Shown here: positions 12,590 through 33,596 of the stretch, piece by piece | How positions within the stretch are numbered: the first letter of the stretch is position 1 | How the letters are laid out: every line of letters starts with the position of its first letter | Assembly (NCBI GenBank): GCA_010015675.1 | Contig: ML977068.1 | Location: forward strand, 1 to 35,229 | DNA from: Byssothecium circinans | Taxonomy: Eukaryota; Ascomycota; Dothideomycetes; Pleosporales; Massarinaceae | Reading direction: 5' to 3' | Length of the DNA: 35,229 bases | Notes under the pieces: model-generated | Told to the model about the DNA's origin: nothing | Database searches by the model: none | The model's input: the letters and a program-made list of their open reading frames with translations, nothing else | Program-made: the position numbers and the translations under genes

Positions 12590-13129
12590 TTAGTATTCCC
12601 TACTTTCAGCTTCTGCGTGACCTTGCTCCACCTTGGCCCTCCAGTCATCCCCTCCAACCCTAATCCTAGCCAAGGCCACCGCCAACTGCAGCTTGTCCTT
12701 TGCCTTCGTGCCATTAACCCCCCAAACGTAGATCCAAGCGTCGCACGTCTTCCGCCACGCCTCCACTTGCCTCCGTTGTCGTTCCCACTCCACAAAGAAA
12801 ATATGATCCGAGTAGCTCCGTTTCCTCACGTCGATATCGGTTCCTTCGAGTTTTTCCATCATTGTCTTGAATTCATTCATCGCATGGCAGGCTAACATGA
12901 TTGCTCCCCTGCATGCGCCTTCCAAGTTATCGATCTCGGGCAAGCCAGCGGCGTTCGGTATGGCATTGATGTAACGATCCACCCTCCGCGACCCTTCGTT
13001 AAAGAGGATGTAGATGCTGCGTTCTTGGTCTACAAAGACTTGGAAGTCTTCGGGGGAAAAGGAATTGTGCCAATGCCATTCAGTTCTCTCGCATGGAAAG
13101 GGTATGTTGTGTGGACATGTCCAATTCAT
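12590..13129 (-). CDS. Unknown helical protein, family member F
   Basis: A 179-residue protein of unknown function from ATG 13129. It resembles its minus-strand neighbours in layout: an N-terminal helical stretch (PEDFQVFVDQERSIYILFNE), then LPEIDNLEGACR at about residue 63, a helix with MNEFKTMMEKLEGTDID, and a C-terminal Trp-rich amphipathic part (FFVEWERQRRQVEAWRKTC, WIYVWG). Compare LPNLEAAEIICR in E and APALEAQAIVCS in D. The resemblance is weaker than among A, B, D and E, so membership is tentative. A possible upstream exon exists: an ATG near 13302 is followed by a GTGAGT donor, and a CTACAG acceptor 43 bases on would join in frame. I did not adopt it because the intron would be unusually short. 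Confidence 0.55.
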   Translation of the reverse strand: MNWTCPHNIPFPCERTEWHWHNSFSPEDFQVFVDQERSIYILFNEGSRRVDRYINAIPNAAGLPEIDNLEGACRGAIMLACHAMNEFKTMMEKLEGTDIDVRKRSYSDHIFFVEWERQRRQVEAWRKTCDAWIYVWGVNGTKAKDKLQLAVALARIRVGGDDWRAKVEQGHAEAESREY

Positions 13130-13941
13130 GATGAGAAGGTCCTGCTGATCGTAAACGGTCGGTTGATATGATCGGGTAATGTGCGCCGGAGTGGGTAAGT
13201 TTGGCTGTATCGTCCAAATCGTATCGATAGCTGCTGTAGAGGGTAAGACTTGCTGGCTGCTTGTTTACTGACTCACAGTGTTCTAGAGCTATTGTCATTA
13301 AATCTCGTCCGTGTCGTGCGAAGAATGAAGGCGGATGGTAGTGGTTCAGTGGTTTAGAACGCAAGAGCGTGCAGCGGTGGAGGAACCGTTTACGCCCGAC
13401 CTACACTGAACAGAGACTGCCAAAGATTGCGATGCCATGTGTCAAAAGCATGGAGACCCTTTCCAAAATTTGATCTGGGAAGTCTCGACGAATACCTGCC
13501 TGGGTCTAGACTTTCTATCACTCGAGGATGGGAAGCGAGCACTTAATGATGAACACGGTAAAGGAGAGGAGATTCATGAGTTGGAACTAATATTTGTAAC
13601 AGTTCAAGGGTAGGATTCATATTAGGGATGCAAGAACGACGTTTACATACAGAAAGGGTAGTCTTGCTGAGGGAAATGGAAGGTGCGCTCAACTACATCA
13701 ATACCCAAACGCGTACACGCATGAGAAGCAATCTCTCGATGCTGCATCCATAGAAGCATACTAAATCGCCGCTTTGGTCCGATAAGTGATAACAGATCTC
13801 CTCCCACAGTATCTCTTAAGTAACTGTCACCTTCACCTGCCCAAAACAGCCTCCAGCTCACCTCACAACTTTTTCATCGCAACTACACAGAAGTAGCATT
13901 GGTAAGAGGCCCTTTCAGAGCATATATTTTGTAACTGCCCT
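13130..13941. other. Intergenic stretch between family members F and E
   Basis: No supported gene. A minus-strand frame at 13643-13861 has an ATG but no domain or family motif. The region may hold the promoter of F. Confidence 0.4.
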
Positions 13942-14816
13942 TCAGGCAGATCGCTCTACGGAAGAGCTATTCGTTTTCAGATATCCCGCCACGATCTTGC
14001 GCTTCTCTTCAGCATCAAAGCAAGCCTCAACCCGTCGGCGCTCCTCCACCAGCAACTCACGCAGGCGCTTTTGCACGAAATCTTCTGTGAAAGGGATAGT
14101 GGAAGCATTGCTGATAACAGCCCTGGTAATGTCCCCAAATGTATTGTCGTCTGGCTCAAGTAGCCCGAGATATTCATTGACGCAAAGTTCCGCATGGCTG
14201 ATCTGCACCATTAGCAAGTCGTGCGACTTTTGAGCTTCTTCCATGACCTGAGAGCGGACAAGAAGAGTTCTCATGGAGAGTTCTACCTTCTGCACGGTGC
14301 TATGGATGTTGGCACGATACGGTTCGTGCAGATACATGGCGAGATAGCGAATCAGTTATTTGTGCTGCAATTCCCATGTTTTAGCAATGTCACTTCGCCT
14401 AGCCTCTACAAACCAGGCCAACTCCTGCCGTAGTTGATCTACCGGAATAAGTCGAGTCTTCCAGTCGCGGACTATGGCAGTAGACTTTGCGGCTGTAGCG
14501 TTACTGTTTTGGCGGAGAAATTGCTCGCCCCTTTCCGCGGCTTCCGGGACCTGCAATGCATGCTGAAGCAGAGTATCCACGACTACATCGTCGACGATGG
14601 ACTGCATCTCGGACTGTAGTGTTTCGACCTGGTTGAGGAATCACGGCAAATGATCTCGGCGGCTTCGAGGTTCGGAAGCGTCCATGCCCGTCCAATGTTG
14701 GTTATGGCCTTGGGGTAAGTCTGGTCGTTCATGTGCATGGCCTGCAGTTTTTTGTGTCGTTTAGTAAACTGTCCGGATGGCCGTGAGTATCTTGAGAGAA
14801 AACTTGCCGGATGCAT
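13942..14816 (-). pseudogene. Unknown helical family member E, two lesions
   Basis: From ATG 14816 the first frame runs to TLPNLEAAEIICR (about residue 47), the hallmark of this family, and then loses frame. The next frame continues the pattern at once with FLNQVETLQSEMQSIVDD and VVDTLLQHAL. One missing base near 14636-14645 explains the shift. That second frame meets TAA at 14356-14358 and then reopens in the same frame to 13942 with a second module (QVMEEAQKSHDLL ... YLGLLEPDDNTFGDI) and a charged tail (VEERRRVEACFDAEEKR). The overall plan matches its neighbour D, which has two modules and is intact. I see no splice signals that would remove either lesion. I therefore call it a recent pseudogene; two sequencing errors is the less likely alternative. 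Confidence 0.6.
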
Positions 14817-15398
14817 TGAGATCTCGAAATGGATCTTGATCCTCTCCCGAACAAAACATTATGTTACATATGTTGCGAGTCTTTGGTTGTAGAGTGGGGA
14901 ATTCTTTTAATAAATTGAGCGCGCGTTAAACGCCCTAGTGATTTTGGGCACCGTTGATGGTTGGCGTGATTGCACTGTGAGTAATCAGAGAGCTTAAATA
15001 GATCAGTGACGAAGGCGGGGTACACAGCGAGCGACGACGATTATGGTGACAACACGCAAAGTTTACATGGCTATATGGGACGGAAGGTCTGACAAATATG
15101 TCCACGTACAATGCGCAAAGAGTAAGAAGGGTCGCTGTACACGTCAGAAGTGTTACACGCCTTCAAAAGAAGATGGCACAGTTTGGGAAGAAGGCATAAG
15201 CATACAGGGTTCAAATATCAATATGTTATATTCTTGTCAGCGGCTTTGGTTTCCGTGCTTTAAAGTTAGTTTTCACGTCACTACTCCCACAGAAAAGAGA
15301 AACAAACTGAGCTTTAGCTACAAAAGCATATATAGGAAAGAGGTCTCAAATTGGCCCGCCAAGAGACTCGCCTCCCATAGGGCTCCTCAACTTTCTAC
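14817..15398. other. Intergenic stretch between E and D
   Basis: Expected promoter of E. A plus-strand frame from 15043 enters the 3' end of D antisense; it is Lys/Ser-rich without a domain and is not called. Confidence 0.4.
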
Positions 15399-16340
15399 CT
15401 ACAAAGGACCAGCCGCATCATCCCCGTTATCTAAGGGTGGACTGCTGCCCCAAGCTTCCATACGGTCCGTCGCTTCCTTCAGCAGTATCACATAGTGCCG
15501 GGCGCAGGATTCCACAAAGTCCCGGCACTCACGATACCGAACCAAGACACTCTTTCGAAAGCGCCTTTCGCAGTAATAGCAGTCGACGTCCAGCCGCCGC
15601 TTATAAGTCCCGACAATGTCAGATAGAGTTTTCTTGTCAATGTTAAACTCTTCCGCCAGTCTTTGTACCGCAGAAAGAGCGGTATAAGTCTGTTCCACCA
15701 GATCGAAGAATGCGGACCGGGCCTCAGCGGGAGTTTGAGCGGCGTTGAAAGCATCTTCATATCCGTCAATCACCGTAACCATTTCAAGACTTTCGTGCAT
15801 CTCACCTATTGGAAGCCAGGGCTTAACAAGCAGGTAGAGATCCAGTTCCGGTAGTTCAGGGGGGGCTCTGTGGGAACAGAAGCGTTCACGGTTTTCGTGC
15901 GCGCATTCCCGCAGGTCCTGCTCGAGGTATGTAATGGAATCATCCGAGCGCTCGAATTCTGTGAGCCAACGTCGCTGATCATCGACGAACTTCGTGAACA
16001 GCTCCTGCACGATCGCCTTGACTACATTCTTGAGCTCAGGGAGCTGCAGAGCCGCTGTTGCCAAACTGTCCACGTCGAGCTGGTTCACCATGGTACCCAT
16101 CTCGTTGAACAGCGTCTTGATTTCGTCGATCATCTCACTGCAGACTATTGCTTGGGCCTCGAGTGCAGGAGCTGATTGCGCCTCGTCCAGCTTATAGTAT
16201 TCCTGGTCGAGATTTCGGAGAATTTCAACCATCTTGTTTCTCCGACTGACGACTTCATCCCGAACGGGGTTTAGGAGGTCGGCGGAAATAGTAGTAAGGT
16301 CGTTGGAGGTCGATAGCGGTTTAGCTCGTTCGCAAGACAT
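15399..16340 (-). CDS. Unknown two-module helical protein, family member D
   Basis: A single-exon protein of 313 residues that starts MSCERA at 16340, like neighbours A and B, which also start MSC. Module 1 has SAPALEAQAIVCSEMIDEIK near residue 56, then LFNEMGTMVNQLDVDSLATA. Module 2, near residues 195-260, repeats the plan: AAQTPAEARSAFFDLVEQTY, then LSAVQRLAEEFNIDKKTLSD. Cysteines in DVDCYYCERRF and a YRECRDFVESC helix follow. The protein is predicted to be largely helical and charged, with no signal peptide or membrane segment, so it is probably intracellular. I do not recognise a Pfam family. It is the only clearly intact two-module member here and serves as the reference for reading pseudogene E. 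Confidence 0.72.
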   Translation of the reverse strand: MSCERAKPLSTSNDLTTISADLLNPVRDEVVSRRNKMVEILRNLDQEYYKLDEAQSAPALEAQAIVCSEMIDEIKTLFNEMGTMVNQLDVDSLATAALQLPELKNVVKAIVQELFTKFVDDQRRWLTEFERSDDSITYLEQDLRECAHENRERFCSHRAPPELPELDLYLLVKPWLPIGEMHESLEMVTVIDGYEDAFNAAQTPAEARSAFFDLVEQTYTALSAVQRLAEEFNIDKKTLSDIVGTYKRRLDVDCYYCERRFRKSVLVRYRECRDFVESCARHYVILLKEATDRMEAWGSSPPLDNGDDAAGPL

Positions 16341-16883
16341 TATCGCAGTCTACTTACTTCTCGTTTCTTTAGGTTTGTAGTAAGTTATGTGTCTCTGTTA
16401 AATTGAGTTTCAAGTGTTAAATTGAGTTTCAGGCTACAACAGGTCATGACGGCTGGATTTATATAAAACAACGCCGCGGGTATGATTTGCTTTACAATGG
16501 CATTGTGAAGGGGGATTATGAGTATACAATATCGTCGTAATATGACCTCGTATATACACAGTGCGTCTGTAACTTCGGTAGAGGAATCGGAGACATTGTA
16601 TCCAATCTGCTCAGAATTCGCAGAAGTCGTGCAATAACATAATAATAAGTCATGTCTATAATGACCAAAATTTGGCTCCAAGTGTGCTTACAGAGCCCAA
16701 TGAAGTCAACCTTCCAAATTTCACCGTACCTTGAATAGGGTCAAACGTAAGGTTTACAGTAAAATGTCTCATGCATGCAGGTAAGACGTGTTTACCTACA
16801 AGGCACCATTAACAACGACTCTAAAACTACAGAATATAACGAGATTAAGGGCCGTTTCTATAAATGTATTGTATGCCTACGGA
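16341..16883. other. AT-rich intergenic stretch upstream of D
   Basis: AT-rich, holding the expected promoter of D. A duplicated segment GTTAAATTGAGTTTCA occurs at about 16396-16411 and 16415-16430. No gene is seen. Confidence 0.4.
16396..16430. repeat. Short tandem duplication
   Basis: The 16-base segment GTTAAATTGAGTTTCA occurs twice in close succession, with AGT between the copies. It lies about 55-90 bp upstream of the ATG of family member D, in its presumed promoter or leader. Confidence 0.7.
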
Positions 16884-17006
16884 TCAATCTGACTCTTTTT
16901 CCAATGAACTATAATGCTCATGTTCATCCCACATGCACTGGAACTTAATGTCCTCAGCCCTCTCCTTCTCCCTCCTAAAATACTCCGCAATCTCCTCCTT
17001 CCGTCT

Positions 17007-17450
17007 CTAAAAACACTCTCTAATCGATTTCCGATCTCCCTCCACCATACACCTCCTCTTCCGCTGCTCCGTACAATTCGCATAGGCATCCAGCACTCTC
17101 CCCACGACACCACGAATCTGCTCCTCCCTCACCAACATGCCGCGCGGCGTCACCTTAACCATCTCCACTAAAGCGTCAACGTTAGGGAACTGGTCAACGA
17201 GCTCCTGCATCTCTCCGAGCGTTTTTTCCAGCTTATCGAGATGCTCACAGAGTTCGATTGCGGCGCCTTCGAGAGCTGGCAGCGTTTTGGCGGCGATGAG
17301 GTTCCGTTTAGACGTGTGTTTCTTGGAGAGTGTGGAGCGGAGGTCGGCGTCGTAGGAGATGAAAGCGGTGTGGAGGGATTGGGCGAGTTCGTTGACGAAA
17401 TCGGTGAGGCTGTTTGAGCAAGCGCTGGGGTTTGAGATTATGCAGGACAT
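17007..17450 (-). CDS. Unknown helical family member A, probably truncated
   Basis: From ATG 17450 (MSCIISNPSACSN) the frame gives 147 residues. The family core is TLPALEGAAIELCEHLDKLE near residue 56, then LGEMQELVDQFPNVDALVEM, then EEQIRGVVGRVLDAYANC. The last element matches TADQIRGLVEAECQWFWEWY in B. The frame stops at TAG 17007-17009. Past that stop the same frame stays open for about 40 more codons to a TGA at 16884-16886, with coding-like composition (RRKEEIAEYFRREKERAED, then FQCMWDEHEH, SSLEKESD) that parallels the acidic end of B. So the gene is probably a truncated copy whose original end was at 16884. Alternatives are stop readthrough or a weak 42-nt intron over the stop. Function unknown; no signal peptide. 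Confidence 0.62.
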   Translation of the reverse strand: MSCIISNPSACSNSLTDFVNELAQSLHTAFISYDADLRSTLSKKHTSKRNLIAAKTLPALEGAAIELCEHLDKLEKTLGEMQELVDQFPNVDALVEMVKVTPRGMLVREEQIRGVVGRVLDAYANCTEQRKRRCMVEGDRKSIRECF

Positions 17451-17830
17451 GGTGAATTTGGACGATTGTTGGATAAGGCTTGAGGTAAATCTGTGCGCAC
17501 TGCGCGTTGGATAGAGGATAGTTTGTGGATCTTTCCTCGTGGGCGAGGTGGATAACATCTTAAAACGGCTGACATTATGAATACACAATGCTGATGAAGG
17601 GAGGATGTTAAGTCTTTATTCATCTCCACACAATGTGAATGGAATAACCAAAACAATGCAAAGCTATGTGGTAATCTCATAGAGAATTGCAAGAGCACCA
17701 GATGATGATGAGGAAGAGTCTGTGGGAGGCCATCTAACTAGCTGAATGAACAATTATAGTCAACAAATTTATCCTTCAACTCGAAATCCTCCATTTCATG
17801 CTCTCAACGTCAAAACAAAAAAATACCCTC

Positions 17831-18358
17831 TTACTCTACTTCCTCCTCCTCCTCCTCATCCGCAGTCCCCCTAAACTCGTCACTCTTCCACTCCACACAC
17901 CTCCAAACATCCGCCCTCCTCTCATCCACCCCAAACCCCCTTCCCACAACCTCATACCATTCCCAAAACCACTGACACTCGGCCTCAACCAGGCCCCGAA
18001 TCTGGTCCGCAGTAACCTTCTCCGTATATTTCTCCCTATCCACACACATCTGAGTCTGATTCCGATACAGTTTCACAAGTAAATCGACATCAACCTGCTC
18101 CAAGACATGTCTGAAGTCATCAAGTAGCGTCTCGGCCCGACTGATGCGTTCCAAACACTCCATCTCCGCGGCCTCAGCTTGTGGGAGTGAGGTGGAGGTG
18201 GCTAGGGTGGTGTAAGAGGTGGAAAAGTCACGCGCCGTGGCGTTGAAGAGGAAAATTTGTTTTTGAAGGTCCCGAACGACCCTGATGAGGAGGGTGGTGG
18301 AGAACTGTGAGAGACTGTTATAGGGTGTGGTTTGGTAAACGTCTTTGGCGCAAGACAT
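17831..18358 (-). CDS. Unknown helical protein, family member B
   Basis: A single-exon protein of 175 residues from ATG 18358 (MSCAKDVYQT). The frame is open further upstream, but this ATG matches the MSC start of A and D. The core reads TSLPQAEAAEMECLERISRA near residue 57, then LLDDFRHVLEQVDVDLLVKL, then TADQIRGLVEAECQWFWEWY. The tail is acidic and ends in a run of six glutamates encoded by a TCC/TCT microsatellite (17837-17860 on the plus strand), which may vary in length between strains. No signal peptide or membrane helix, so probably intracellular. B is the best-preserved short member and sits at the right end of the same-strand array. No known family recognised. Confidence 0.7.
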   Translation of the reverse strand: MSCAKDVYQTTPYNSLSQFSTTLLIRVVRDLQKQIFLFNATARDFSTSYTTLATSTSLPQAEAAEMECLERISRAETLLDDFRHVLEQVDVDLLVKLYRNQTQMCVDREKYTEKVTADQIRGLVEAECQWFWEWYEVVGRGFGVDERRADVWRCVEWKSDEFRGTADEEEEEEVE

Positions 18359-19409
18359 GATGCACAAGGGCTTTCCCTCCGTCTTGTTATTGTCGAGAAT
18401 AGTAATAAGAATCCAGTTGGAGATTTGGAGATTTTGATGGCAATAGCAAGTTGTGTTGCGGTACTGTAGAGGGAGGTGGTAGATGAACATTCCTTAGTCA
18501 CAACGATCCACAATATATCTATAGACACACATTTTTACTGTATTGTGCAGAACCGGAGTGCCGTGTTTTGCACTGGCTACAGTGTACTGTACAGTGTGGA
18601 TATCGGAAGCCCTTCGCGGTACTGTTTTGGTACAACGTCTTAACAGTGTAGGAAAACATATTGCCCAGCGTGGCACTCTACCATCTGAATACAAATTGGT
18701 GATGCTGGGTACTCCGTTGTCGGGAGATCATGTTCGATAAATTGATCAATGACGTGCATGCGCTGTTCAGCGAAGGGGTGAGTACCCTCATAATTTCACT
18801 GAACATGTGTCAGCACCGATTGTCGGGGGTCCTTCGGTTCCTTCCAGAACTCAACTCTGCACAAGCGATCGAACAACGAAACATACCTGCTGACTGCATA
18901 TCGTACAACCGTAAGCGTACTTTCATTCAGGCGAAACAGATGGTGAGCAGCTCAGAAATGGATATATAGCGTATCTGCGTAGACATGTACAACATCTATG
19001 AGTCTAGAAGAGAAAACCAAGCCAGGACCACCTACACAGCCAATTCAAGCGCCCGAGGTCCGCTATTGCATCGGATTCCTTCACCTGAAGCAAAGAAGGG
19101 TAAAAGGTGGAAGCCAAACACCGCGGCCCGGATGTCGATCGCAACGAAGTCGCCTGAGAATCCCTGCTGTATAATCCCTGTCCGTGATCCACTTCCCAGC
19201 CTAACCTGCATAAAACAACATTTCTCTCCCCAACCCCGAGTTCGATAATCTCTACCATGAGCCCCGTCACCAATCGGGTACAAACATCCATGCGCATGCG
19301 AATGCAAAGTCCCCGAAGCGTAATTGCCAAATATGCGCGCAAAAAAAAGGAAAACAGCGTGCTATCTGACGTGTAGGGACAATGGGTAGTGACACGCCCA
19401 AAGCTGCGA
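18359..19409. other. Intergenic stretch right of the family array
   Basis: About 1 kb without a supported gene. Plus-strand frames of 65-87 codons (18543-19248) have no signal peptide, domain or splice context. Confidence 0.45.
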
Positions 19410-20050
19410 TCAGAAGAAAACTAGAGGATCGGCTTGCAGCTCGCTCAGACCTGGTAAAGAGTCGTGTATAACAGTGCAGAAGGCGTTGTGGTTTGCTGGT
19501 TGCTCGTCTTGATTATCCGATAGGGGTGTCAGCCGGACCTTCCTCACTAAACTCTTGGCCTCAGGACTGAGGTGTCGTATGAAGTCGAGAACGGGTAGGT
19601 AGTTGAAGGCATAGAAGTGGAAGAGGTTTTCTGAGTAGAGAATGGAAAGGCATTCGTGGTAGATGAGGCGGTTCGCGCGCAAGATGTCGAGGGTCAAGGT
19701 GTCGGGATGTGGGCGGCATTTCTTGTTCCACTTTTTGCTGATTGCGGTGGATTCGCAGTCGGTATAGAGCAGGAATCGCTTCGTTGACGACGGAAGAACA
19801 TATCTGAAGATTTCGCGGCGTATCTCCGAGGGTATGCGCAATAATGGCGGATAGTTGTCCAGGGCAGTTATTGTCTCGGGAATGGAGAGCTGCTTCACGA
19901 CTGATTGACGCGACCCCCCTCTTCTTTGTAGATAGATGTCACTGGATGCGGGATCCATAGGTGTGGGCGTGAGCTGTCGCGAAACTGAGTGCATGTTTCA
20001 TCCATAAAGAACAGATGGCTTACCTTTTTCGAGGACGTCTTGGTCGGCAT
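19410..20050 (-). CDS. F-box-like/DUF7730-type protein
   Basis: Inferred exons 20024-20050 (MPTKTSSKK) and 19410-19973, joined over a 50-bp intron (GTAAGC...ACAG), give 196 residues. The core LDNYPPLLRIPSEIRREIFR is the degenerate F-box-like motif seen at the start of many fungal proteins annotated F-box or DUF7730. It is followed by the characteristic LDILRANRLIYHECLSILYS and a NLFHFYAF block, then a LSPEAKSLVRKVRL segment. Such proteins may act as ubiquitin-ligase adaptors, but most are uncharacterised. The protein is shorter than usual (250-400), ending soon after the conserved core. Starting instead at ATG 19994 within the intron would give 194 residues without splicing. It is divergent from CCT7 across a 504-bp shared promoter region. 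Confidence 0.68.
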
Positions 20051-20554
20051 GTCTAGATATTTATAAATGGCAGACACGGATGCTACGGAAAGCAACTACA
20101 AGGCCAATGAGCGAGTTGTGGGAGCCTGGGCGACAGCAAGGTCACGAGACAAGGCGGAGGCGCAATATATCATTAGACAGCGGGCGAAGGAGGGTCGCGG
20201 ACTGCAGACGAAGCGCTGACCGGACGGCGAAAGAGCATCAAGGATAGTGGGAAAGCGAGATTTGGGGCGAAGAATGGCACGGAAGCATGGTAGAAGGCTA
20301 CTGGAAGGCTAGAAGCACGCTGGACGGCTCACGGCTCACGGCTCTAGGGTATCGGCGCGGAACAACTGGCCGGAGCTGGTCCGAGCGCGACCTCCAAATT
20401 TCTCGACGCGATTGGCGCCTGGCGGGGAGCATCGAGCTTCCCGGACACTGAAACAGCACGGAATCACGCCCTTTACGCCCTTTACAGCTTCACTCTATCT
20501 GTATCTTGCTGTTTCGGCGCACTTGGCAGTTTCTTCGATACCCAAAGCTTCACC
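20051..20554. promoter_or_regulatory. Shared divergent promoter region of the F-box-like gene and CCT7
   Basis: A 504-bp gap separates the two divergent start codons. It holds three tandem ACGGCTC units at about 20324-20344 and pyrimidine-rich tracts before the CCT7 start. The frame of CCT7 exon 2 appears open back to 20412, but only because the first intron is stop-free in that frame; the true start is at 20555. The specific control elements are not identifiable. Confidence 0.4.
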
Positions 20555-22356
20555 ATGTCGTTCGGCGGACAGACCCCGACGATTGTTGTGCTGCGAGAAG
20601 GTGCGACATCCGAGCTTGATATTGCTATGTAAACAAGGGCATATTAAGGATTGTACTGATAAAAATGCAGGCACCGACCAGTCGCAAGGCCGTGGTCAGG
20701 TACTCTCGAATATCGACGCCTGCCTCGCCGTCCAGTCAACGATAAAAGGCACCCTCGGCCCGTATGGCGGCGACCTGCTGATGGTGGACGAGAACGGCAG
20801 GCAGACAATCACCAATGATGGCGCCACCGTCATGAAGCTCCTCGACATTGTCCACCCGGCCGCCCGCATCCTCACCGACATTGCCCGCTCGCAAGACGCC
20901 GAAGTGGGCGACGGCACCACATCTGTGGTTGTGCTGGCCGGAGAGATACTGAAGGAGATCAAGGACTACGTGGAGCAGGGCGTCAGCAGCCAGACCATCA
21001 TCAAGGGCCTGCGGAGAGCATCGCACCTCGCCGTCAACAAGGTCATGGAGATTGCAGTGGACACAGCCGAGGGCAGCCAGCGCGACACACTCCAGAAGCT
21101 GGCCGCGACGGCCATGAGCAGCAAGCTGATTCACCGCAACGCCGACTTCTTCACAAAGATGGTGGTGGACGCCGTGCTGTCGTTGGACCAAGAGGACATC
21201 AACGAGAGGCTCATCGGCGTCAAAAAGATTACCGGTGGCGCACTACAAGATTCGCTCTTCGTCAACGGTGTCGCCTTTAAGAAGACTTTCTCATACGCCG
21301 GGTTCGAGCAGCAGCCCAAGTCCTTCGCCAACCCCAAGATCGTCTGTCTGAACGTGGAATTGGAACTCAAGAGCGAGAAAGACAATGCCGAGGTGCGCGT
21401 GGAGCAGGTGTCGGAATATCAGGCGATTGTGGATGCGGAATGGCAGATCATCTTCAACAAAATGGAGGCCCTACACAAAACGGGCGCACAGGTTGTGCTC
21501 AGCAAGCTCCCCATTGGCGATCTAGCGACACAGTATTTTGCGGACCGCAACGTGTTCTGCGCTGGACGAGTTGCGACAGACGATCTGGACCGCGTGTGCC
21601 GAGCGACGGGCGCCAGTGTGCAATCCACCTGCTCAGACATCCAGCCGAAACATCTTGGAACCTGCGCAAAGTTCGAGGAGCGACAAATCGGCGGCGAACG
21701 ATTCAACTTCTTCGAGGGCTGCCCAGAGGCGAAGACGTGCACGCTGGTGCTCCGTGGCGGTGCCGAGCAATTCATCGCCGAAGTCGAGCGAAGTCTTCAC
21801 GACGCCATTATGATTGTCAAGCGTGCCATCAAGAACAGGAGCATCGTTGCAGGCGGTGGAGCATGCGAGATGGAAATCTCGGCCTATCTCCATGCCTATG
21901 CCGACAAGGACGTGCGCAACAAGCAACAACCCATCATCAAGGCATTTGCCAAAGCCCTAGAGGTAATACCCAGGCAACTGTGCGACAATGCCGGTATTGA
22001 CGCGACCGACATCCTCAACCGCCTGCGAGTGGAACACAAGCGGGGCAACATCTGGGCGGGCGTCGACTTCATGCACGACAGCATCGCGAACAACATGGAG
22101 AAGTTCGTGTGGGAGCCTAGCCTGGTCAAGATCAATGCTCTGCAAGCTGCGACCGAGGCGGCGTGTTTGATATTGAGTGTGGACGAGACGATAAGTATGT
22201 TTTCCAGCTTCATATACCTGAGATTCAGTCGCTAATGCCCGTGCAGAGAACCAAGAGTCGGCCGGACCTCAAGCACCAAACAAGCAGCTGCCGCCGGGTG
22301 CGGCGCAGCGGGCGCTCGGTATGAGGGGGCGTGGACGAGGCATGCCTAGGCGGTAA
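20555..22356 (+). CDS. CCT7: T-complex protein 1 subunit eta (CCT7)
   Basis: One of eight subunits of the cytosolic TRiC/CCT chaperonin, which folds actin, tubulin and other proteins with ATP. Exons 20555-20600, 20671-22194 and 22247-22356 (introns 70 and 52 bp) give 559 residues, the normal length. The N-terminus [15 protein letters not shown] is the eta-type start. The ATP-site elements are [37 protein letters not shown] (95-99) and [12 protein letters not shown] (about 408-417). [20 protein letters not shown] is diagnostic for eta over the other subunits. The C-terminus after the second intron, [19 protein letters not shown], is the arginine/glycine-rich eta tail that points into the folding chamber. 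It is a conserved housekeeping gene and anchors this otherwise accessory region. Confidence 0.97.
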
Positions 22357-22662
22357 AGTTGAATGCAGAGTTCATGTATACCACTATACCAACGCGTGCA
22401 GCGTCAGTGTCGACACAGCTCAGACAGCTCAGACATTTAATAAAAACATGAACACTTGTACGAAATCCAGCGTCATGATATGTGGGGTTTTGTTATTTGC
22501 GATTGCTACTAACTCGCTTCATATGGAAGATGTCGGTACACCAAAATCGAATGGCTTTAGTAACCCTTCTTTCACTAAGCTCTCTCCCATGCAAAATTAA
22601 ACGCAGAAGCCCATTGCTAGATTCCCATATCCACCCGCTGCTCCCATGTTAATACGTCCACA
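22357..22662. other. Convergent intergenic stretch
   Basis: The 3' ends of CCT7 (plus) and the chitinase gene (minus) face each other here. Both terminators and polyadenylation sites are expected; a TTTAATAAAAA stretch near 22436-22446 could serve CCT7. No gene seen. Confidence 0.4.
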
Positions 22663-24072: not shown

Positions 24073-24773
24073 GATGGGTGGCTTGGCCTTTATTATAGTT
24101 GGTCGTGGTTTGGTGGATGGACTGATTTGTGGTGTAGGTGTGGGTTTCTATATACAAGTCAGCCATCTATCAATCATGGACGCGAGAATCTGTGAATAAC
24201 AAGGAGCTACTTACGCTACCAACCGTTTTTGTAGTGTGCCTTAGAGTTGAAGTCACGCTAATCGTAGTTTTCGGTTTGCTGCCTGCGGGGGGTTTCGTGT
24301 TTCCACTCGTAGCAGAAGCCTCAGTCTCAGTCAGTAAAAGGCATGAAAGAAGTTCAGAAGGTATATAAAGCGTATGATCGGTTGATATGTGGGTAAAGCT
24401 GATGTGGGATAGCTGCGCCACAAACAGCCACATCGCTACGTCACCGCAACTAGGATACAATATTGCTACTCTTCACACCAGCCGAACAACGCCCAGCGCG
24501 TGAGGTCAGCGTTCGTGCTCCCAACCCTTGAAAACAGTCAAGGATTTTTGTCGTATCGATGTGGCGAGCAATCAGAGAGCTTTCCAAGGTTGGGCTGACG
24601 GGGGAGCTCATCCCATACGACATGACAGCTCGACAGCATGGCCCATGGCACCGCAGCGATCGGCATCTATGAGATGGATATCTCATGTTTCGCTCGGTAA
24701 CTGGAGGCGATACTCGAAAGTCATTTCGACAAGCGAATCCACAGCTCTAGACTTCCTCCACAACAGAACGGAA
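24073..24773. other. Intergenic stretch between the chitinase and the small secreted-peptide gene
   Basis: A minus-strand frame at 24170-24460 is Ser/Thr-rich but has no domain and does not join the chitinase gene cleanly. This is the likely promoter of the chitinase. No gene called. Confidence 0.4.
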
Positions 24774-25007
24774 TCAACGCACCAGTATAGCCGTCAGCTT
24801 GTCAATCTGCTTCTGCAGATCCGCAATCTGACTTGCAGCTTTGAGACACCACGAACATTCTTTCGGCGGCTGCTGTGCGATTGCGACCGGGGCGAGAAGG
24901 AGCAGCCAGAAGACGAGGCTGAGAAAGTCACGTGCGCCCTGGTTCAAATCAGCCGAATGTCAAATACGCCTGTTCATCTCAACTCCCCGTCAACTTACTA
25001 TCATCAT
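24774..25007 (-). CDS. 57-residue secreted peptide with CxxC motif
   Basis: Two exons on the minus strand: 24999-25007, which is only ATG ATG ATA, and 24774-24938. They are separated by a 60-bp intron with a perfect GTAAGT donor and a CCAG acceptor. The protein starts MMIGARDFLSLVFWLLLLAP and continues VAIAQQPPKECSWCLK. It thus has a strong hydrophobic core and an Ala-x-Ala cleavage site before QQ at about residue 25. The mature part is about 32 residues: one CSWC pair, then an amphipathic helix (ASQIADLQKQIDKLTAILVR). The frame has no ATG of its own, and the splice supplies it exactly in phase. A further 3' exon is possible, since GTGCGT sits just before the stop. No family recognised; a secreted or wall-associated small protein is the simplest reading. 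Confidence 0.5.
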
Positions 25008-25609
25008 AATGCGCAATGAAATCGAGATTCTTCTTGGAAAAATGGAGTGTCGGGTGCGCTCATTACATATGTATGAGTTTGCGTGTCGCGCGCTCCGGAC
25101 TCACTCTGTTCCGAATGGAATGGACTGGAGGAGTCCTTGCTTCAACATGTCTTCAACAGCGATCTAGGGATTGCCTCTTGGGCCTTTCTTCCTCATGCTT
25201 CAAGATGCTCTGGACCGACCGCCAGGGAGATATTACACGTGCACTGTCATGTACGCGAGGAATGTCATCACAGCCTCCATTCCGACCATAGACGAGGTAT
25301 CACCAGTCCCAATTTGACACCGGAAAGTGACCGGGATCTCATTGGAGCACCGTGAAACTATGCCAGTGTATGCCTCACAGCAAGTGTCAGCCGGGATGCG
25401 CCTCGCCTGTCAGCCTCGTGGAATATATACACGAGAATACCCGCAATAGAAGCTCATGAACTTCATAGTTACCCATCCTCCACGTCCTCGTTCGCCTCTA
25501 GTCAGGCCTCCGTGCCTCGTCGTACCTATTCCGAAGTTGTCGCAGGAGTTTTCGAACTTGTTCTACATGAGTCTCTACGCTCCACAACCGCACTTATCCG
25601 AAAGCTGGA
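25008..25609. other. Promoter region of the STAND receptor gene
   Basis: About 600 bp with no supported gene. Plus-strand frames of about 90-110 codons have no domain. It should include the promoters of both the minus-strand peptide gene and the STAND gene that begins at 25610. A TATATACA box-like run lies at about 25424-25431. Confidence 0.4.
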
Positions 25610-28600
25610 ATGGATCCACTCAGCGTAACCGCTGGCATTATTGCCATCCTTCAACTCGCGAACAAAGTCATCACAATTGGTTTGAGCTTACATGCAAGCC
25701 TTACAGTGAGGAAAGAGCTAGATCAAATCATCAATGAGGTCGACTCGCTTCGTGCGGTTCTCCAAAAGCTGGCGCGTCTTTCACAGACCGAGACGCAAAA
25801 CAACAGCACCGCGATACTGTTGGTCGACCTCGATGACCACCGGGCTAGAGCCCTTTCGATTTGCAGGACGGAACTGGTCTCTCTCGAGGCCGAACTGGCT
25901 AAAGCCAAACTCTCTGGATCTCAATTCGGTCTCAGTAGCGTCAAGTTGATTGGCATCGGAAAGGAGATAAAGACGCGATTGGAAAGACTTTCGAGAGCTA
26001 AGCAGACTCTTCAATTGTCACTGGCATTGGATGATTACGAACTTTCTCTGCAGTCTCGTATGGACTCGCTGCACATCCGGTCGACTCTGGATGACGCTAC
26101 AGATGAACGAGATCGCCGCTCCATCATCGACTGGTTGGGTCCACCGTTCCCAACATCTGCCTTCAACGACGCTCAACGACTTCGAAGTACTAATACAGGG
26201 ACCTGGTTTCTAGACGGCAACCCCTATCGATGCTGGAAGCATTCGCCGCATTCAACGCTTTGGCTTAGCGGTATCCCCGGCTCCGGAAAAACAGTTTTAT
26301 GCTCTTCAATCATCGTGGATTTGAATTCAATGTGCCGCTCTAGCCATAATGGACTGTTGTTGTATTTTTTCTTCGAGTTTACCAATCGCGACAAAGAACC
26401 CGTCGGCACATTCCTTCGGTCTGTATTATCACAAGCAGTGGTGCAGAGACGAGAAATACCTCCTTCAATCCAGGAACTCTTCGACCAGCATCACAACGGC
26501 TTCCAGCAACCAAATATCAGCATTCTACTTGCTACTCTGATGGAAATCTTGGAAAGCGAAAAAGAGATATATTTGGTCCTTGACGCCTTGGACGAATGCT
26601 CTGAAAGAGTTCAGTTGCTTGAGGCGGTAAAGGAAATCATCAGCCGGTCGCTGGATAATCTGCACATACTCGCTACCAGTCGTCCCGAGAAAGATATTGA
26701 AAATATCTTCACTCACATTCAAGCTCAACATATGCGTCTCGAAGGGTCTGCTGTAAGCAACGATATCGAGCAATACGTTCAGAACAAGCTGCTCAAAGAG
26801 CAATGGCTACATAAATGGCCACAAGGCGTCCAAGACGAGATCGTATCTGGGATTGTTGCTAAAGCAGGAGATATGTTCCGTCTGGCTGACATGCAACTCA
26901 ACGGACTCAAGAAATGCGGCACGCTCAAACTTCTCCGAGCCGCGTTGCGCACCCTACCGACATCTCTCGATGAAACTTACTCTCGAATACTCGACAGCAT
27001 TGAGCCCGAACATGTCGAGGCCGCTGTGAGGATTCTTCAATGGCTTTGCTTCTCTTTTGCGCCTCTTACCTTGAGCGAACTTGCAGAAGGTCTAGCAGTC
27101 GATCTTCACGAAAACGAGTACGTACTCCCAGAACGCAGATAGTTGAATCGGCCATCTGTTCGATGGCCTCAGTCAATACATCAGTGGACCAGGACCGCTT
27201 TGTATCAATTTCGCTGACTTTTTATCTTGCCATTCAGGTACGATGAAACTCAACAACTACAAGACCTCGAAGACATCTTGTCGATATGCGGAAGCCTAGT
27301 AGTACGAGCCAGAAACTCGGCCAGCACTGTCAAACTTTCGCACTATTCCGTGAAAGAATATTTAATTTCCAACCGGATCCTACGCAGCAAAAATGAATAT
27401 TTTCACATCGACGTCGCAAGCGCAGAGCTATGTATCGCAAAAACGTGCCTCATTTACCTACGAAGTCGGTCTGCTCCATCACGATCGCGATGCGATTCAG
27501 AATCACGCCCCGCCTCTTTAACACAATACGCCATAGACCATTGGCCTGAGCACTTTCATCGATCTGGTCAAAATAAAACACTTCAACCGCTCGCAGAGCA
27601 GTTGTTGTTCAACGAAGAGGTCCGGTTCCTCGAATGGGCGCGGATTTATTGCGTATCTGAGGGAGGGAACTACACTGAAACCCTCAAGCAGCACGACCTA
27701 AATGCGATTTTATACTACGTTGCCTGGGTGGGCTCCCCAAGCCTCATGGAGGCTACGCTCAAGCGAGGAGCAGAAATCAATGTTGATGCAGGAGCGTTCG
27801 GAACCGCATTAAATGTATCGGCGTGTCTGGGGAGTATTGAATGTCTTCAACTACTCCTTGCATGGGGCGCGGACATCAACTACCAGGCTGGAATCGGGTG
27901 CTTCGCTTTGAGGGCTGCTGCTGGACATGGCTCCGTCGAGTCGGTTCGATTCCTTCTTTCCCACGGAGCCGATGTCAACATGCGTCATAAGGATCATTTA
28001 GATTCTCTTCATGCTGCCATATGCGCTCACAGGAACCGGGACAGGACCGTTGGGCTTCTACTCGAGGCAGGTGCTGATGTGCGCGCTTCAAAACCCGACA
28101 ATCAACCAATGGAAGTCTCTCCACTCTGTGCTCTTGCGGTTATGGATGGAGCTGTCCATCTTGCAAGGCTTCTTCTTGATCGGGGCGCAGAAGCCAATAG
28201 AGCAGGCTGCTTGCAAGTCAGTATTTTTCCTGTCTTGATCACCTGACGATTTTGTGGCTAACTGTTTTCACATTTCGACTTAGGAGGCCCTTCGCTTCGG
28301 GCACATTGATCTAGCAAACCTGTTACTCGAGAGAGGAGCGGATGTCAATGGCGACGACCTTTATGGCCGTCCAGTCATGGACGCAGCAATGAATCAGGTT
28401 GCAGTTCTTTCCCTCCTCGTCGAACGCTGGAATGCCGACTACCTTTGGACTGACTCCGCAGGAAGAAGCGTACTACACTTAGCTGCGCAGGATGGTACTT
28501 TTGACACGGTGGAATACCTACTCGGTCTGGGAATGAGTATTGACCAAACAGATGCGAGAGGTTGGACCGCAATTCACTACGCTGCAGATGCCGGCGCAGC

Positions 28601-29090
28601 TGACAAGCTTAAATTACTACTTTCCAGGCAGAGCACCAAAATTTCGAATCTACCAATCGCAATGGCAACAACAACATGGACACCACTACATCTAGCGTGT
28701 CGAAGGAACGAGTCCGAGGCCCTCGACCTTCTACTTCAAGCTGGCTTTAAGCCCACTACCGTTGCAACGAAGGATCCGCCATGGGAATGGAGCCTGTACG
28801 ACATTGCCCTTGTCCATCGCAACTATAGACTCATCTCGGAAAATTTGGACCCAATACATCCACTGCTAATCCAAGAACGAGCATCCGCCCAACGTCCGCT
28901 AATGCCTCTGAGCGATAGAAAGGAATGTGACGGATGCTTTCCAAAGCCAGGCGCGTCTCACCTTATCTTTGGGCCTGTGTTCCATTGCGACGAATGTCTA
29001 GATTTCGATTACTGCTTCATGTGTAGGATGACCGCCGATCAGATGCATCCGCACTCTTCGTGGTCTATTCTCCAGGAACAAGATCTTTAG
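25610..29090 (+). CDS. HeLo-like-N/NACHT/ankyrin/ZZ STAND (NLR-like) protein
   Basis: Exons 25610-27117, 27238-28216 and 28284-29090 (introns 120 and 67 bp) give 1097 residues. Residues 1 to about 150 match the fungal STAND N-terminal helical domain (MDPLSVTAGIIAILQLANKV, the Helo_like_N/fungal_N type). A NACHT NTPase follows: Walker A LSGIPGSGKTVL (about 219-230) and Walker B LVLDALDEC (about 322-330). A winged-helix-like stretch (TLPTSLDETYSRIL, FAPLTLSELAEGLAVD) bridges to about ten ankyrin repeats (about 655-985), e.g. ALRAAAGHGSVESVRFLLSH. The end (about 1043-1090) is a ZZ-type zinc finger: CDGC, HCDEC, YCFMC, HPHSS. NACHT-ankyrin proteins are proposed fungal immune or heterokaryon-incompatibility receptors: the repeats sense, NACHT oligomerises, the N-terminal domain signals. 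Splicing restores a continuous sequence at both joins. Ligand and partner are unknown. Confidence 0.9.
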
Positions 29091-29337
29091 GCAAACTTGG
29101 AAGAATGTGCGCAAGCCGATGAATCATCTGGACTGTTGGAAAGGGAAGCGTTTTGGGGCTCTAACCTGAACTATTAAGATCGATTGCAGTGGTAATAGTG
29201 TGTGGGTGGAGCTGACATAGACAAGCTTATCTCGTTCGTATACAACGCCAAACCGCTTTCCAAATGCCCTCCTGCCAAAAGCAGAAATTATGCACCAGAG
29301 CATGAGAAAGAGAGAGACACTACAAACAGACAGCGGC

Positions 29338-30416
29338 CTATGCAAAGTTCACATCTGTAGGCGCAGACCTCACCTCCTCTTTCGCCTTCCCTCGCCATTC
29401 CTCTTCCACCACTCCAACCTCTCTCCGACTCTCAACCAGCGCTTTTATAAGCGCAATCGCCACCTCCCTCCCCGTTTCCAATTTCTCCTCGCTATCACTC
29501 AAATCCGGAACGTGCAGAAAAACGACAGGCTTCTCATCTTTCTTGATGGAGTAGTAGTGCGCCAGCGAATTGTAGTAAATAAACCCACACATGAAGTTCC
29601 CCGCATCTTTACTAATCCGTACATCAGGCACCTCCGCATCCTTTGGCACTGAATCCGCGTCCCCATAGCCAAGCGCGCGCCGCCATCTCCTCAGCACATC
29701 CTTGGTATTGAAGCTCGTTAGTAATCTATTCGGATACTCCCCCTCAGGCCATTTCTCCAGTCCCAAAGAATCCGGATACCGTTCCCCATCGACATCTGTC
29801 AGTGATCCGTAGCCCCGCGCATGCGAGCCTTCTTCGAGCGTATAAAAAGGTCGACCGGCGGCAAGGCCGATGTGTAAAATGATGTCCGGTTTGGGGTAGA
29901 TTGGGCTGGAAGGTGGGAGCAGGGTGGGAGCGAGGGCGATGACGGGTCTGTAGGCGACGCGGATGGGTTCGTGGTGCACGTAGATGCGTATTGGAGTGGG
30001 GTTCGAAAGGGAGGCGGGAATGAGAGCGGGGAGGTGCGAGGCGATTTCCCACGAGGAGTTTATGGGGACTTGGCCGAGGAAGGGCTGGTGTGGTGTGTTA
30101 GATGTAGTATGATAGATGGATTGAGGAATGTAAGGCTTGAACAACACAAAATAGGGAAAACACCTGGGCACGATCGAGTACACGTGACTTCCGTTTCACA
30201 CATCAAGTGATGTGGTATCCATTCACTCTCAACTTTTCCCGGATGGTAAACCGACACGTCAAAATATGAAAAAGAAAAGGAAAAAATTTAAAGAAAGCAA
30301 AAACAACAGTGTAAAAGGGTCTTTCATACTCCAAAGCCAGTCACCAATACCGTAACAGGATCATCCCCCTTCTCTGGCGGAGGTTGACGAGCTGTCGTCG
30401 ACCAAGCTCGCGGCAT
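29338..30416 (-). CDS. Pyroglutamyl-peptidase I-like cysteine peptidase (C15)
   Basis: Likely removes N-terminal pyroglutamate from peptides in the cytosol. Exon 1 (30330-30416) encodes MPRAWSTTARQPPPEKGDDP followed by VTVLVTGFG. Exon 2 (29338-30084) continues with PFLGQVPINSSWEIASHLP. Together they restore the C15 hallmark 'VTGFGPF...NPSWEIA', and the protein is 277 residues. A 245-bp intron (GTATGA...CCAG) separates them; exon 1 is too short to stand out as an open frame. The catalytic set is visible: Glu in FYTLEEGSHARGYG (113/114), Cys195 in AGNFMCGFIYYNSLA and His220 in VVFLHVP. Fungal C15 proteins are longer and more diverged than bacterial ones, so activity is probable but not certain. 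Reading exon 2 alone upstream into the intron would give a false start. It is divergent from the monooxygenase gene. Confidence 0.85.
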
Positions 30417-31172
30417 CGGGCTAGTGAGCTACCATGTCATGAGGTACAAAGGACGTAACGGTACAAATACTCTTACAGGATCCCTATTTCCTGAGTCAGC
30501 AGCGGCTTTTGATAGGTCTTGCATCGGCATCGAGTGTGTGACACCACTGGCGGTGCCTGGGTGAGGTATTGAGCATGACGTCGTTTGGTCCACTCAACCA
30601 CAACCATTATTGGTGCTTCGACTGCGTGCTATCTGCGGGACGGGGTCTTGTTGGGCAATTTCTAGGATCATTGAGGGCTGCCGTACCTATGGCGTGAGGA
30701 TGATATATACAAAGAAACCACCACAGTAATACTGCGGTACGTGGGGGGTCTCAAAAAGAGTGGCACGAGTAGAATCGTGGCGCGGAGTGCAGGTGCAGAT
30801 GGATTAGGCCTGATTAGGAGCTGACCTCGGCTTTTCGCTAAAACGGGCTATTTCCGGCTCTCGTGACGTAGACTTCGTTCCGAAGTCTTTTCCGAATCCC
30901 CGCATCGCATCCAATTGCCGACATTGCTTGTATGAGCTCCACTCTGAGAATTTGTTGACTGTCAGGGCTGGTGGACGGGTGATTCATGCTAGAAACTGTG
31001 CTTTGTACGCGTGTCGTACGTCAGAGTGAGTGTTTTTCTCTGAAGGGTTGCCAATTGCAACTTGAACAACTTGAGATGACTTCTCAGTCGGGAGAAAAGA
31101 AAGAGCTGATAGGCTTCACAGATACACCTTGAACCTCCATTCAAGGCCCTATCTTCCTCTCTATAGGCTACC
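30417..31172. promoter_or_regulatory. Divergent intergenic region of the peptidase and monooxygenase genes
   Basis: 756 bp between two divergent start codons, with no supported gene. It contains the perfect inverted repeat listed separately and a direct repeat (GATTAGG-CCT-GATTAGG) near 30804-30820. Both genes' promoters should be here. Confidence 0.5.
30870..30888. promoter_or_regulatory. Perfect inverted repeat, possible regulator-binding site
   Basis: AGACTTCG, three spacer bases TTC, then CGAAGTCT: an 8-bp perfect inverted repeat. It lies about 285 bp upstream of the monooxygenase start and 454 bp from the peptidase start. Short inverted repeats of this form can be binding sites for dimeric regulators such as Zn2Cys6 proteins, but no regulator gene is adjacent and the match could be chance. 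Confidence 0.3.
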
Positions 31173-32529
31173 ATGGCCTCCCCCAAGCCCTTCAACGTCG
31201 CCATCATTGGCGGCGGCATCTCGGGCCTGACCCTCGCCACCGGCCTCCTCCAGCACAACATCCCGCTCACCATTTACGAAGCGGCACCCTCTTTCAGCGA
31301 GATCGGCGCCGGTGTAGCTTTCGGACCCAATGCCGCGCTAGCCATGAAGCTCCTCTCCCCGAAGATATACGCCGCGTTTGAAAAATGCAAGACAGCGAAC
31401 CAGTGGGAGAGTAAGTCGGACTCGTGGTTCACTGTGCGGGTGGGCGACGCGCGCAAAGCGGACAAGGATGGCTTCGTGCGGGATTGTAAGAAGGTCGGGG
31501 ATGCGTTGTTTGATATGAAGTTTGGGAATGACAGAGGACGGGGTGGGGTGTATCGGGCGCACTTTTTGGACGAGCTGGTCAAGGAGATACCGGACGGAGT
31601 GGCCAAGTTTGGGAAGAAGTTGACCGATATATCATTGGCTGATGACAAGTCGGGAGATATGATCTGTCACTTTGCGGATGGCACGCAGGCGAGACATAAT
31701 GCCGTTATTGGGTGTGATGGCATCAAGTCGGCGTCGAGAGAATGGATGTTCGGCAAAGATGATCCAGTGACGCACCCCGTATTTTCGGGCAAGTACGCGT
31801 ACAGAGGTTTGATACCGATGGATCAAGCAATCGAAACGCTGGGTGAAGAGGTCGCGAAAAACTCGCAGATGTTCTTTGGGTATGGCGGGCATGTCTTGAC
31901 CTTTCCTATCGAGAAGGGCAGGACGATGAACGGTCAGTTGTTCCTGTTTTAACTCCACAAAGATTCCTCTAACAGCTGCAGTCGTCGCATTCAGCTCGTG
32001 CAAAGAGTGGAAAGACGAGAAATGGGTCGTCACAACCACAAAAGAAGAAATGAACGCCGAATACGCCGCTTGGGGTCCGCACGTCCAAAAGATCGTCCAC
32101 GCCATGCAGAAACCCGATATATGGGCACTTTTCTACCACCTCCCGTGCTCAACCTACTATAAAGGGCGCGTCTGTCTTCTCGGCGACGCCGCGCACGCTA
32201 CAACGCCGCATCAAGGGGCTGGCGCAGGCATGTGCATGGAAGACGCGCTCATCATGTCGATATTGTTGAAGGAAGTGAAGGGCGTGGATGACTTCGAAAG
32301 AGCGTTCAAGGCTTTCGACGAGGTGAGAAGACCGCGGACTCAGAAGAACGTGATTACGAGTAAGGAGGCGGGGATGTTGTATGATTTCGAAGGCAGGGGG
32401 ATTGGTGATGATTTAGAGAAGCTTGAACCAGAGTTTAGGGGAAGGATGAGGTGGCTATGGGATGTTGATCTAGATGAGGAGATTGAAAGGGCGAGGAAAA
32501 TATACTTTGGTGCCACGTCGAAGATATGA
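31173..32529 (+). CDS. FAD-dependent monooxygenase (salicylate-hydroxylase-like)
   Basis: Class A flavoprotein hydroxylase, likely acting on an aromatic acid or a secondary metabolite with NAD(P)H and O2. Exons 31173-31932 and 31982-32529 (49-bp intron, CTAAC branch, GCAG acceptor) give 435 residues, the usual length. The FAD-binding Rossmann motif is FNVAIIGGGISGLTLATGLL (GxGxxG at 13-18), and the E at the end of the second strand is in IYEAAP. The middle DG motif appears as VIGCDGIKSASR. The second FAD motif is VCLLGDAAHATTPHQGAGAG (GD at 321-322). The EIGAGVAFGPNAALAMKLL block is typical of salicylate-hydroxylase-like members. The substrate cannot be named. The methyltransferase 29 kb away is too far to imply a cluster. 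Confidence 0.93.
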
Positions 32530-32981
32530 CGTATCGGCCTCGTTCGCTTTTACACTCATACCATCCCAACCTCTACACTTCACTGCTACATCGTCGCTGA
32601 CATACTACTCAGCTTCCTACTGAATCTATCGAAGAGGCTTCCCCTGTTACCAAAAGCTCGCTTTATCCTATTAAAGGTCACTCTGATTACGCTCTTTGTT
32701 CGCCGAACCCACACAATGCAATGTCTGACTCTCTTTCACACTTCCTTCAGGCAACAACAAACGCCCAATCCCGCTATCTACACAATGCACAGCCCACTAC
32801 ATAACCATTTCTTTTCCCACACCTCTTTCCGCCAGACATCATCCACACACAACACACACTCCGCATCCCGCAACCCCAGCTCGACCACCCCGCGCACTTC
32901 CCACCACGCCCACGCCCCTACCACCCCCAAGTGCGCCGCGTGGCCGAGCACTCTTCCTTCACTACCTAATACCACCACACA
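32530..32981. other. Intergenic stretch before family member C
   Basis: C-rich and low in complexity near 32830-32970 (runs of CACA, CCAC and CCC), which yields a spurious Pro/Ser/Thr-rich frame. Probably the promoter and leader of the gene at 32982. Confidence 0.4.
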
Positions 32982-33596
32982 ATGGCCACCGACGCCTACT
33001 ACGACGCCCTCTCCTGCAACGACATCCTCCACACCATCCACACAGCCCTCAACTCCCGCATCATCCCCTTCGACACCGCCGTCTCAGGCTACAGACGCAC
33101 CTTCGAGCGCATCTCAGCAGTAACATCCATCCCAGACGCCGAGGCCCTTGGAATCGAATGTCACCTCCTTCTCGACAAGATCGCTGCTCTGCTAGCGGAG
33201 CACAAGGCGCTGCTCGAGGCCCTCAACGTGACCGCGCTGTCGAATGTGCTCGGTCGAGCTCTTGGCGTAGATGAGATGGTAGCGATGCGCGTGGTCGAAG
33301 AGCAGCTGGAGGGGTTGTGGGAGGGGTATTGGGATGCGTTTTTTCGGAGCTGTGTTGGGGAGCGGAGGGAGGATGTTGATTCCGAGGTTGAGTTTATTTC
33401 TATGAAGATCGCGGGTCGGACTTCGACTATCGAGGGGGAGGAGAAGAAGAAGAAGGGGGCACAGGTGCAGAAGGCGGTGGAGAGGGATGGGGCTTTTGAG
33501 GATGGAGCGCTTAGGAGGGTGGAGCGTTTGGGGGAGGTTGGGGAGGCTGACGCGGGCGTCGGGCCGTTTCGTATTGGGATTGCTAGTGATGCGTGA
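32982..33596 (+). CDS. Unknown helical protein, family member C (dispersed copy)
   Basis: A single-exon protein of 204 residues from ATG 32982 (MATDAYYDALSCND). It shares the plan of the array at 12.6-18.4 kb: a helical N-terminus (HTIHTALNSRIIPF, SGYRRTFERI), then TSIPDAEALGIECHLLLDKI near residue 49, then LLAEHKALLEALNVTALSNV, then VVEEQLEGLWEGYWDAFFRS, comparable to the FWEWY part of B. The tail is charged (ERREDVDSEVEF, a KKKKGAQVQKAVERD stretch) and Gly/Glu/Val-rich, coded by purine-rich DNA. No signal peptide or membrane helix. It lies 15 kb from the array on the opposite strand, so it is a dispersed copy. No known family recognised. Confidence 0.68.
   Translation: MATDAYYDALSCNDILHTIHTALNSRIIPFDTAVSGYRRTFERISAVTSIPDAEALGIECHLLLDKIAALLAEHKALLEALNVTALSNVLGRALGVDEMVAMRVVEEQLEGLWEGYWDAFFRSCVGERREDVDSEVEFISMKIAGRTSTIEGEEKKKKGAQVQKAVERDGAFEDGALRRVERLGEVGEADAGVGPFRIGIASDA

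Follow-up and report, generated by a model that had tools for sequence, protein, structure and literature searches.

The 35,229-bp contig C92 of the fungus Byssothecium circinans, analysed here over its whole length (the window), carries a real, undescribed family of small proteins of the ordinary orphan kind. Four genes, A, B, C and D, form one homologous family as judged by profile comparison. Its conserved member, C, has a relative in another genus, the hypothetical protein P280DRAFT_479978 of Massarina eburnea CBS 473.64 (the Massarina protein). Five loci lie on the minus strand at 12,590-18,358 in the order F, E, D, A, B, an array of 5.8 kb, and C lies on the plus strand, starting 14.6 kb past B. 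This placement is as first described in an earlier note on the same DNA, which had proposed that all six loci belong to one unnamed helical family. We find that the proposal holds for A to D and also for E, though E is broken, while F is only a probable member that passed its shuffle controls with weak scores.

Genes A, B, C and D form one family

Gene B (17831..18358, minus strand) is an intact open reading frame (ORF) of 175 amino acids, and gene C (32982..33596, plus strand) encodes 204. Gene A (17007..17450, minus strand) encodes 147 amino acids, and gene D (15399..16340, minus strand) encodes 313, of which approximately residues 1-146 represent the family domain and the remainder a second helical region. 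Each protein was scored with a profile of the remaining members (leave-one-out), the Massarina protein being excluded as well when C was scored. As controls we used, for each protein, as many as 1,000 scored shuffles that preserve chemical class position by position, and 615 stop-to-stop ORFs of at least 40 residues taken from the window and from 5.8 kb of the extension provided by the overlapping contig C93. Left-out A scored 51.0 bits (shuffle maximum 27.8, 0 of 999 reaching the real score), B 64.3 bits (26.3, 0 of 1000), C 47.0 bits (21.5, 0 of 977) and the family domain of D 57.4 bits (30.9, 0 of 1000). Among the 615 ORFs the left-out members had expectation values (E-values) of 6.7e-19 to 2.2e-13, with 6.7e-19 for B, 3.5e-16 for D and 1.4e-14 for A. 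Reversed sequences of A to D and of the Massarina protein reached at most 4.2 bits, compared with 47-64 bits for the real proteins. Chance resemblance of A to D is thus rejected on the class-preserving shuffles and the ORF control.

Protein searches of the whole genome connect the same genes. C found B at an E-value of 5.3e-5, B found C at 2.1e-4 and D at 2.7e-4, and the Massarina protein found D at 6.5e-4 and B at 0.006. Weaker matches link D to A (0.007) and to B (0.048), and A to D (0.005), C (0.19) and B (0.33). It is the combination of leave-one-out profile scores and whole-genome searches that leads us to regard A, B, C and D as homologous, at pairwise identities of 19-28%. Codon preference placed the proposed frame at the top of all six in 11 of 11 stretches, which had been chosen beforehand as open in that frame; a score based on synonymous codons only did not discriminate frames.

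C is the conserved member and has a relative in Massarina eburnea

When a database holding 5.8 billion proteins is searched with a profile of A to D, P280DRAFT_479978 is found at an E-value of 2.6e-30. The Massarina protein is identical to C at 94 of 174 columns (54%), scores 180 bits against it and, like C, carries the hallmark region described below in the same position. It is the sole relative of A to D found outside B. circinans in that database, with 2,671, 5,259 and 384 candidates scored and with E and F not among the queries. Unlike for C, no relative of A, B or D is among the matches listed for M. eburnea. By sequence comparison the family therefore reaches beyond B. circinans and C is its conserved member; the idea that it is specific to this species fails on the 54% identical relative of C.

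The maximum-likelihood distance between C and the Massarina protein is 0.66 substitutions per site. Once A, B and D are added, the nine remaining pairs lie at 2.39-3.41. Either the duplications of the array are older than the split from Massarina, where the copies were then lost or have escaped detection, or evolution was faster in the copies than in C; the tree of the five sequences is unrooted and compatible with old duplication and faster copies alike. Since A to D share only 19-28% identity, the copies are old or fast-evolving and the expansion is not recent. A local expansion under birth and death, as the earlier note had it, is consistent with a tandem array in which one member (E) has decayed, provided that it is not taken to be recent.

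Searches of the B. circinans genome with A, B, C, D, F, two pieces of E and the Massarina protein (E-values up to 10) revealed no further convincing copy outside C92 and C93, although searches with one sequence have little power near 25% identity, with the E pieces and F missing their own siblings, so that distant copies could escape. A multicopy family spread over the genome is unsupported, all matches but one being confined to these two contigs. The remaining match, of the downstream piece of E to contig C19 (E-value 0.41), was rejected: the ORFs listed there score at most -0.5 bits against the family profile, and the ORF matched presumably encodes an amidase, judging by its motif.

Two shared elements coincide with predicted helix starts

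The sequence contains every one of the six hallmark strings and the VD strings that had been reported for these loci, as well as the MSC start of A, B and D and the QIRG(V/L)V motif common to A and B. Counted from the assumed ATG, the hallmark starts at residue 57 in A, 58 in B, 57 in D, 50 in C and 63 in F. A loose hallmark pattern, composed after the strings were known, has six matches in the six-frame translation of the whole window, five of which correspond to B, C, D, E and F and one to a non-family sequence; A is unmatched since its cysteine is shifted.

The AlphaFold2 model of C has a mean predicted local distance difference test score (pLDDT) of 72.6, with values of at least 70 at 131 of 204 residues. 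Ten-residue blocks between residues 21 and 140 average 84-96 while the last 57 residues are unreliable. Five main helices are modelled with confidence (residues 12-44, 50-80, 83-94, 98-123 and 125-143), and most likely pack as a bundle, judging from the PDB chains that align with the model. IPDAEA starts at residue 50 of C and NVTALS at residue 82, and they thereby coincide with the beginnings of helices 2 and 3, respectively. In the model, then, both shared elements mark helix starts, which would explain their recurrence at fixed spacing, and motif likeness alone is consequently no proof of kinship. The description of the family as helical agrees with the five helices of C, this being the one good model from which a shared fold could be drawn; D modelled over its whole length has poor confidence (mean pLDDT 54.0).

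No 19-residue window exceeds a mean hydropathy of 1.24 in the cores of C, the Massarina protein, A, B and D or in whole D and F, for all of which we calculate isoelectric points of 4.4-6.3. At the N-termini of C, the Massarina protein, A, B, D and F the best 12-residue mean is at most 1.03. This rough hydropathy proxy, applied mostly to core parts, suggests that the members have neither signal peptide nor membrane span, and makes the intracellular location that had been proposed probable.

Locus E is most likely a pseudogene

Locus E consists of an upstream piece (14586..14858, minus strand) bearing the hallmark LPNLEAAEIICR, a middle piece in another frame (14359..14640, minus strand) bearing VVDTLL with a stop at its end, and a downstream piece past that stop (13942..14355, minus strand). 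The hallmark (14643-14678) and the VD element (14566-14583) are separated by 59 nt, which is not divisible by three, compared with 60 nt in each of B, C and D and 63 nt in A. Because the two elements stand in different frames, we consider the locus broken: the shared plan proposed for E is present in its hallmark and VVDTLL, and is not contained in a single reading frame, given the 59-nt gap and the later stop. Among the 615 ORFs the upstream piece scores 13.0 bits (E-value 0.0024), its hallmark part reaching 13.9 bits against a shuffle maximum of 8.4, and the middle piece 16.8 bits (E-value 0.00016; shuffle maximum 14.8). Neither real score is reached by any shuffle (0 of 925 and 0 of 998, respectively). 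In pairwise comparison the middle piece scores 74 against D, equalled by 0 of 500 shuffles, and its score against C is equalled by 201 of 500. The downstream piece fails the family test, its 3.4 bits being matched by 48 of 953 scored shuffles. A further upstream fragment in yet another frame was excluded from E, as 117-481 of 500 shuffles reach its scores against five members. E is best read as a family member that has become a pseudogene, with odd splicing or sequence error as alternatives.

Locus F is a probable distant member

Locus F (12590..13129, minus strand) encodes 179 amino acids. It scores 13.7 bits against the family profile, compared with a maximum of 8.6 for class-preserving shuffles (0 of 910), and at an E-value of 0.0026 ranks seventh of the 615 ORFs, after only A to D and the two pieces of E. 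Several observations weigh against its membership. Its E-value is 0.0018 with a profile lacking A, 1.2 with one lacking B, 0.096 with one lacking C and the Massarina protein, and 0.03 with one lacking D; of the pairings of F, only that with B has an uncorrected p below 0.05 in a pairwise test of 28 pairs; BLASTP against the Massarina protein gives an E-value of 0.27; and hhalign assigns F a probability of 40%. An unrelated F-box ORF has E-values of 0.042, 0.15 and 0.07 in three of the same four leave-one-out profiles, so that weak scores like those of F need care. Taken together, F is probably a distant member, mainly through its likeness to B.

Genes A and D deviate from the common layout

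Past the TAG codon that ends gene A, the same frame stays open for 40 codons (16887-17009). Given this open frame and the alignment of D to A, which continues across the TAG, the gene may be a shortened one. The second half of D is not established as a repeat of the first, the D-D pairwise score being reached by 6 of 1,000 shuffles. In pairwise comparison with other members, its score is reached by 5 of 1,000 shuffles for the Massarina protein and by 61 of 1,000 for C, and its score with the family profile by 22 of 769 scored shuffles. hhalign aligns the second halves of D and E with the family core at an E-value of 0.38, and no match is seen between the two second halves (their score is equalled by 481 of 1,000 shuffles).

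Searches reveal no described family

The earlier statement that the loci match no described family is upheld by Pfam, NCBIfam and PDB searches without a credible match. No Pfam model reached its cut-off for A, B, C, D, F or the downstream piece of E (best E-value 0.035), and the Massarina protein together with C gave no credible match (best 0.044). The best NCBIfam score for A, B, C, D, F and the Massarina protein was 17.5 bits against a cut-off of 200. HeLo-type Pfam models had no match to the scanned members at E-values up to 10, a range in which remote kinship could escape. By sequence, 14 PDB chains matched at E-values up to 10, none of them credible (best 0.21). A Foldseek search with the model of C found no close fold (best E-value 0.30). 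The nearest known structures are the helical bundles of syntaxin Habc domains, the Not5 N-terminal domain and spectrin repeats; the 50 matches listed, many of them to designed or unrelated bundles, have identities of 5-16% and give no sign of kinship. Literature searches brought up no title or abstract opening that describes the family, and no paper that mentions P280DRAFT_479978.

The family may comprise helical protein-binding modules

In our assessment there is an even chance that the members are small cytosolic helical protein-binding modules, with C as the conserved member and the array as strongly diverged tandem duplicates, of which E is broken, A maybe shortened and F a probable case. 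The five main helices would form a bundle, helices 2 and 3 starting at the two recurring motifs, and would offer a surface for docking onto a partner protein. Duplicates could diverge by altering this surface and hence the partner, so that tandem duplication would be followed by divergence and, in E and possibly A, by decay.

A possible though less probable explanation is that the family is old and widespread in fungi, with its other members past detection. Homology detection failure is reported to be a null model accounting for many lineage-specific fungal genes (PMC7660931), and just 2,671, 5,259 and 384 candidates were scored here, E and F not serving as queries. However, with a score of 180 bits between C and the Massarina protein, one would expect to recognise orthologues from Pleosporales a little further removed, and none is listed. 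The opposite possibility, a young family restricted to and perhaps born in the Massarineae, in which C seeded a fast-evolving array of diversified partners or decoys in self/non-self recognition, appears improbable to us. Somewhat less improbable, though still unlikely, is that the proteins serve the nearby NOD-like receptor (NLR)-like and caspase-like genes as helical partners, in signalling or as decoys, within a neighbourhood for self/non-self recognition or programmed cell death. A gene with NACHT/NPHP3_N and ankyrin repeats, a caspase-like C14 protein and a TPR gene fragment do share the contig. However, NLR-like and caspase-like genes are frequent in fungal genomes, no HeLo-type Pfam match was found among the scanned members, and the NLR-like gene lies 7.2 kb off the array with DUF7730, TCP-1 chaperonin and chitinase genes intervening. 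In Neurospora, lineage-specific genes reportedly cluster with HET-domain genes (PMC10684091); these genes, like the family here, have no recognisable domains, and the gene on the same contig here is NLR-like.

Two further explanations are very improbable. The proteins might be unrelated and alike only through amphipathic helices and helix-capping motifs, in keeping with the hallmarks of C, which in its model stand where helices begin and capping motifs would be expected to converge, with the low identity of A to D (just 19-28%) and with the unrelated F-box ORF that reaches E-values of 0.042-0.15 in three of four leave-one-out profiles. Shuffled sequences at no more than 30.9 bits and reversed ones at no more than 4.2, against 47-64 for A to D and the Massarina protein, largely refute this for A to D, leaving F as the locus to which it may still apply. 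Secreted effectors diversifying under host pressure would fit the rapid divergence, clustering and decay that are typical of effector genes, but no hydrophobic N-terminal segment was found by our rough proxy in C, the Massarina protein, A, B, D or F (at most 1.03).

Read as protein-binding modules or otherwise, the loci add to the many orphan families of fungi one that is undescribed and that combines a single conserved member with several diverged neighbours. With C recognisable in another genus and the array strongly diverged, they offer a tractable case for the divergence and death of orphan duplicates. At present knowledge of function and breadth of sampling their significance is local.

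Assembly and genomic neighbourhood

The B. circinans assembly comprises 48.4 Mb in 109 contigs, the window being the complete contig C92. Its positions 1-34174, reversed, equal positions 1-34174 of C93 (41,206 bp), giving 34,174 bp with zero mismatches. The two contigs probably represent one unresolved assembly overlap, a perfect true duplication being the alternative. Because of these identical 34,174 bp every locus was seen twice in genome searches, and copy counts are doubled here. The contig end falls within a TPR-repeat ORF (34861-35229; TPR_10, E-value 1.8e-28), a possible cause of the assembly break.

The NLR-like gene (25571-29090), 3.9 kb from C, is made up of three ORFs that match NPHP3_N/NACHT, ankyrin repeats and, weakly at the C-terminus, ZZ; a weak PigL_N match is present at its N-terminus. 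The caspase-like (Peptidase_C14) protein (7856-9517) scores 21.2 bits, slightly below the Pfam cut-off of 21.4. A DUF6594 protein adjoins the array (11357-12364; E-value 4.3e-54). Beyond the window start, C93 contains a 1,646-amino-acid ORF (L014 4418-9358) that resembles, by its motifs, part of a polyketide synthase-nonribosomal peptide synthetase hybrid. O-methyltransferase ORFs are located on the same side (1148-2014), and a secondary-metabolite cluster possibly lies near the window start.
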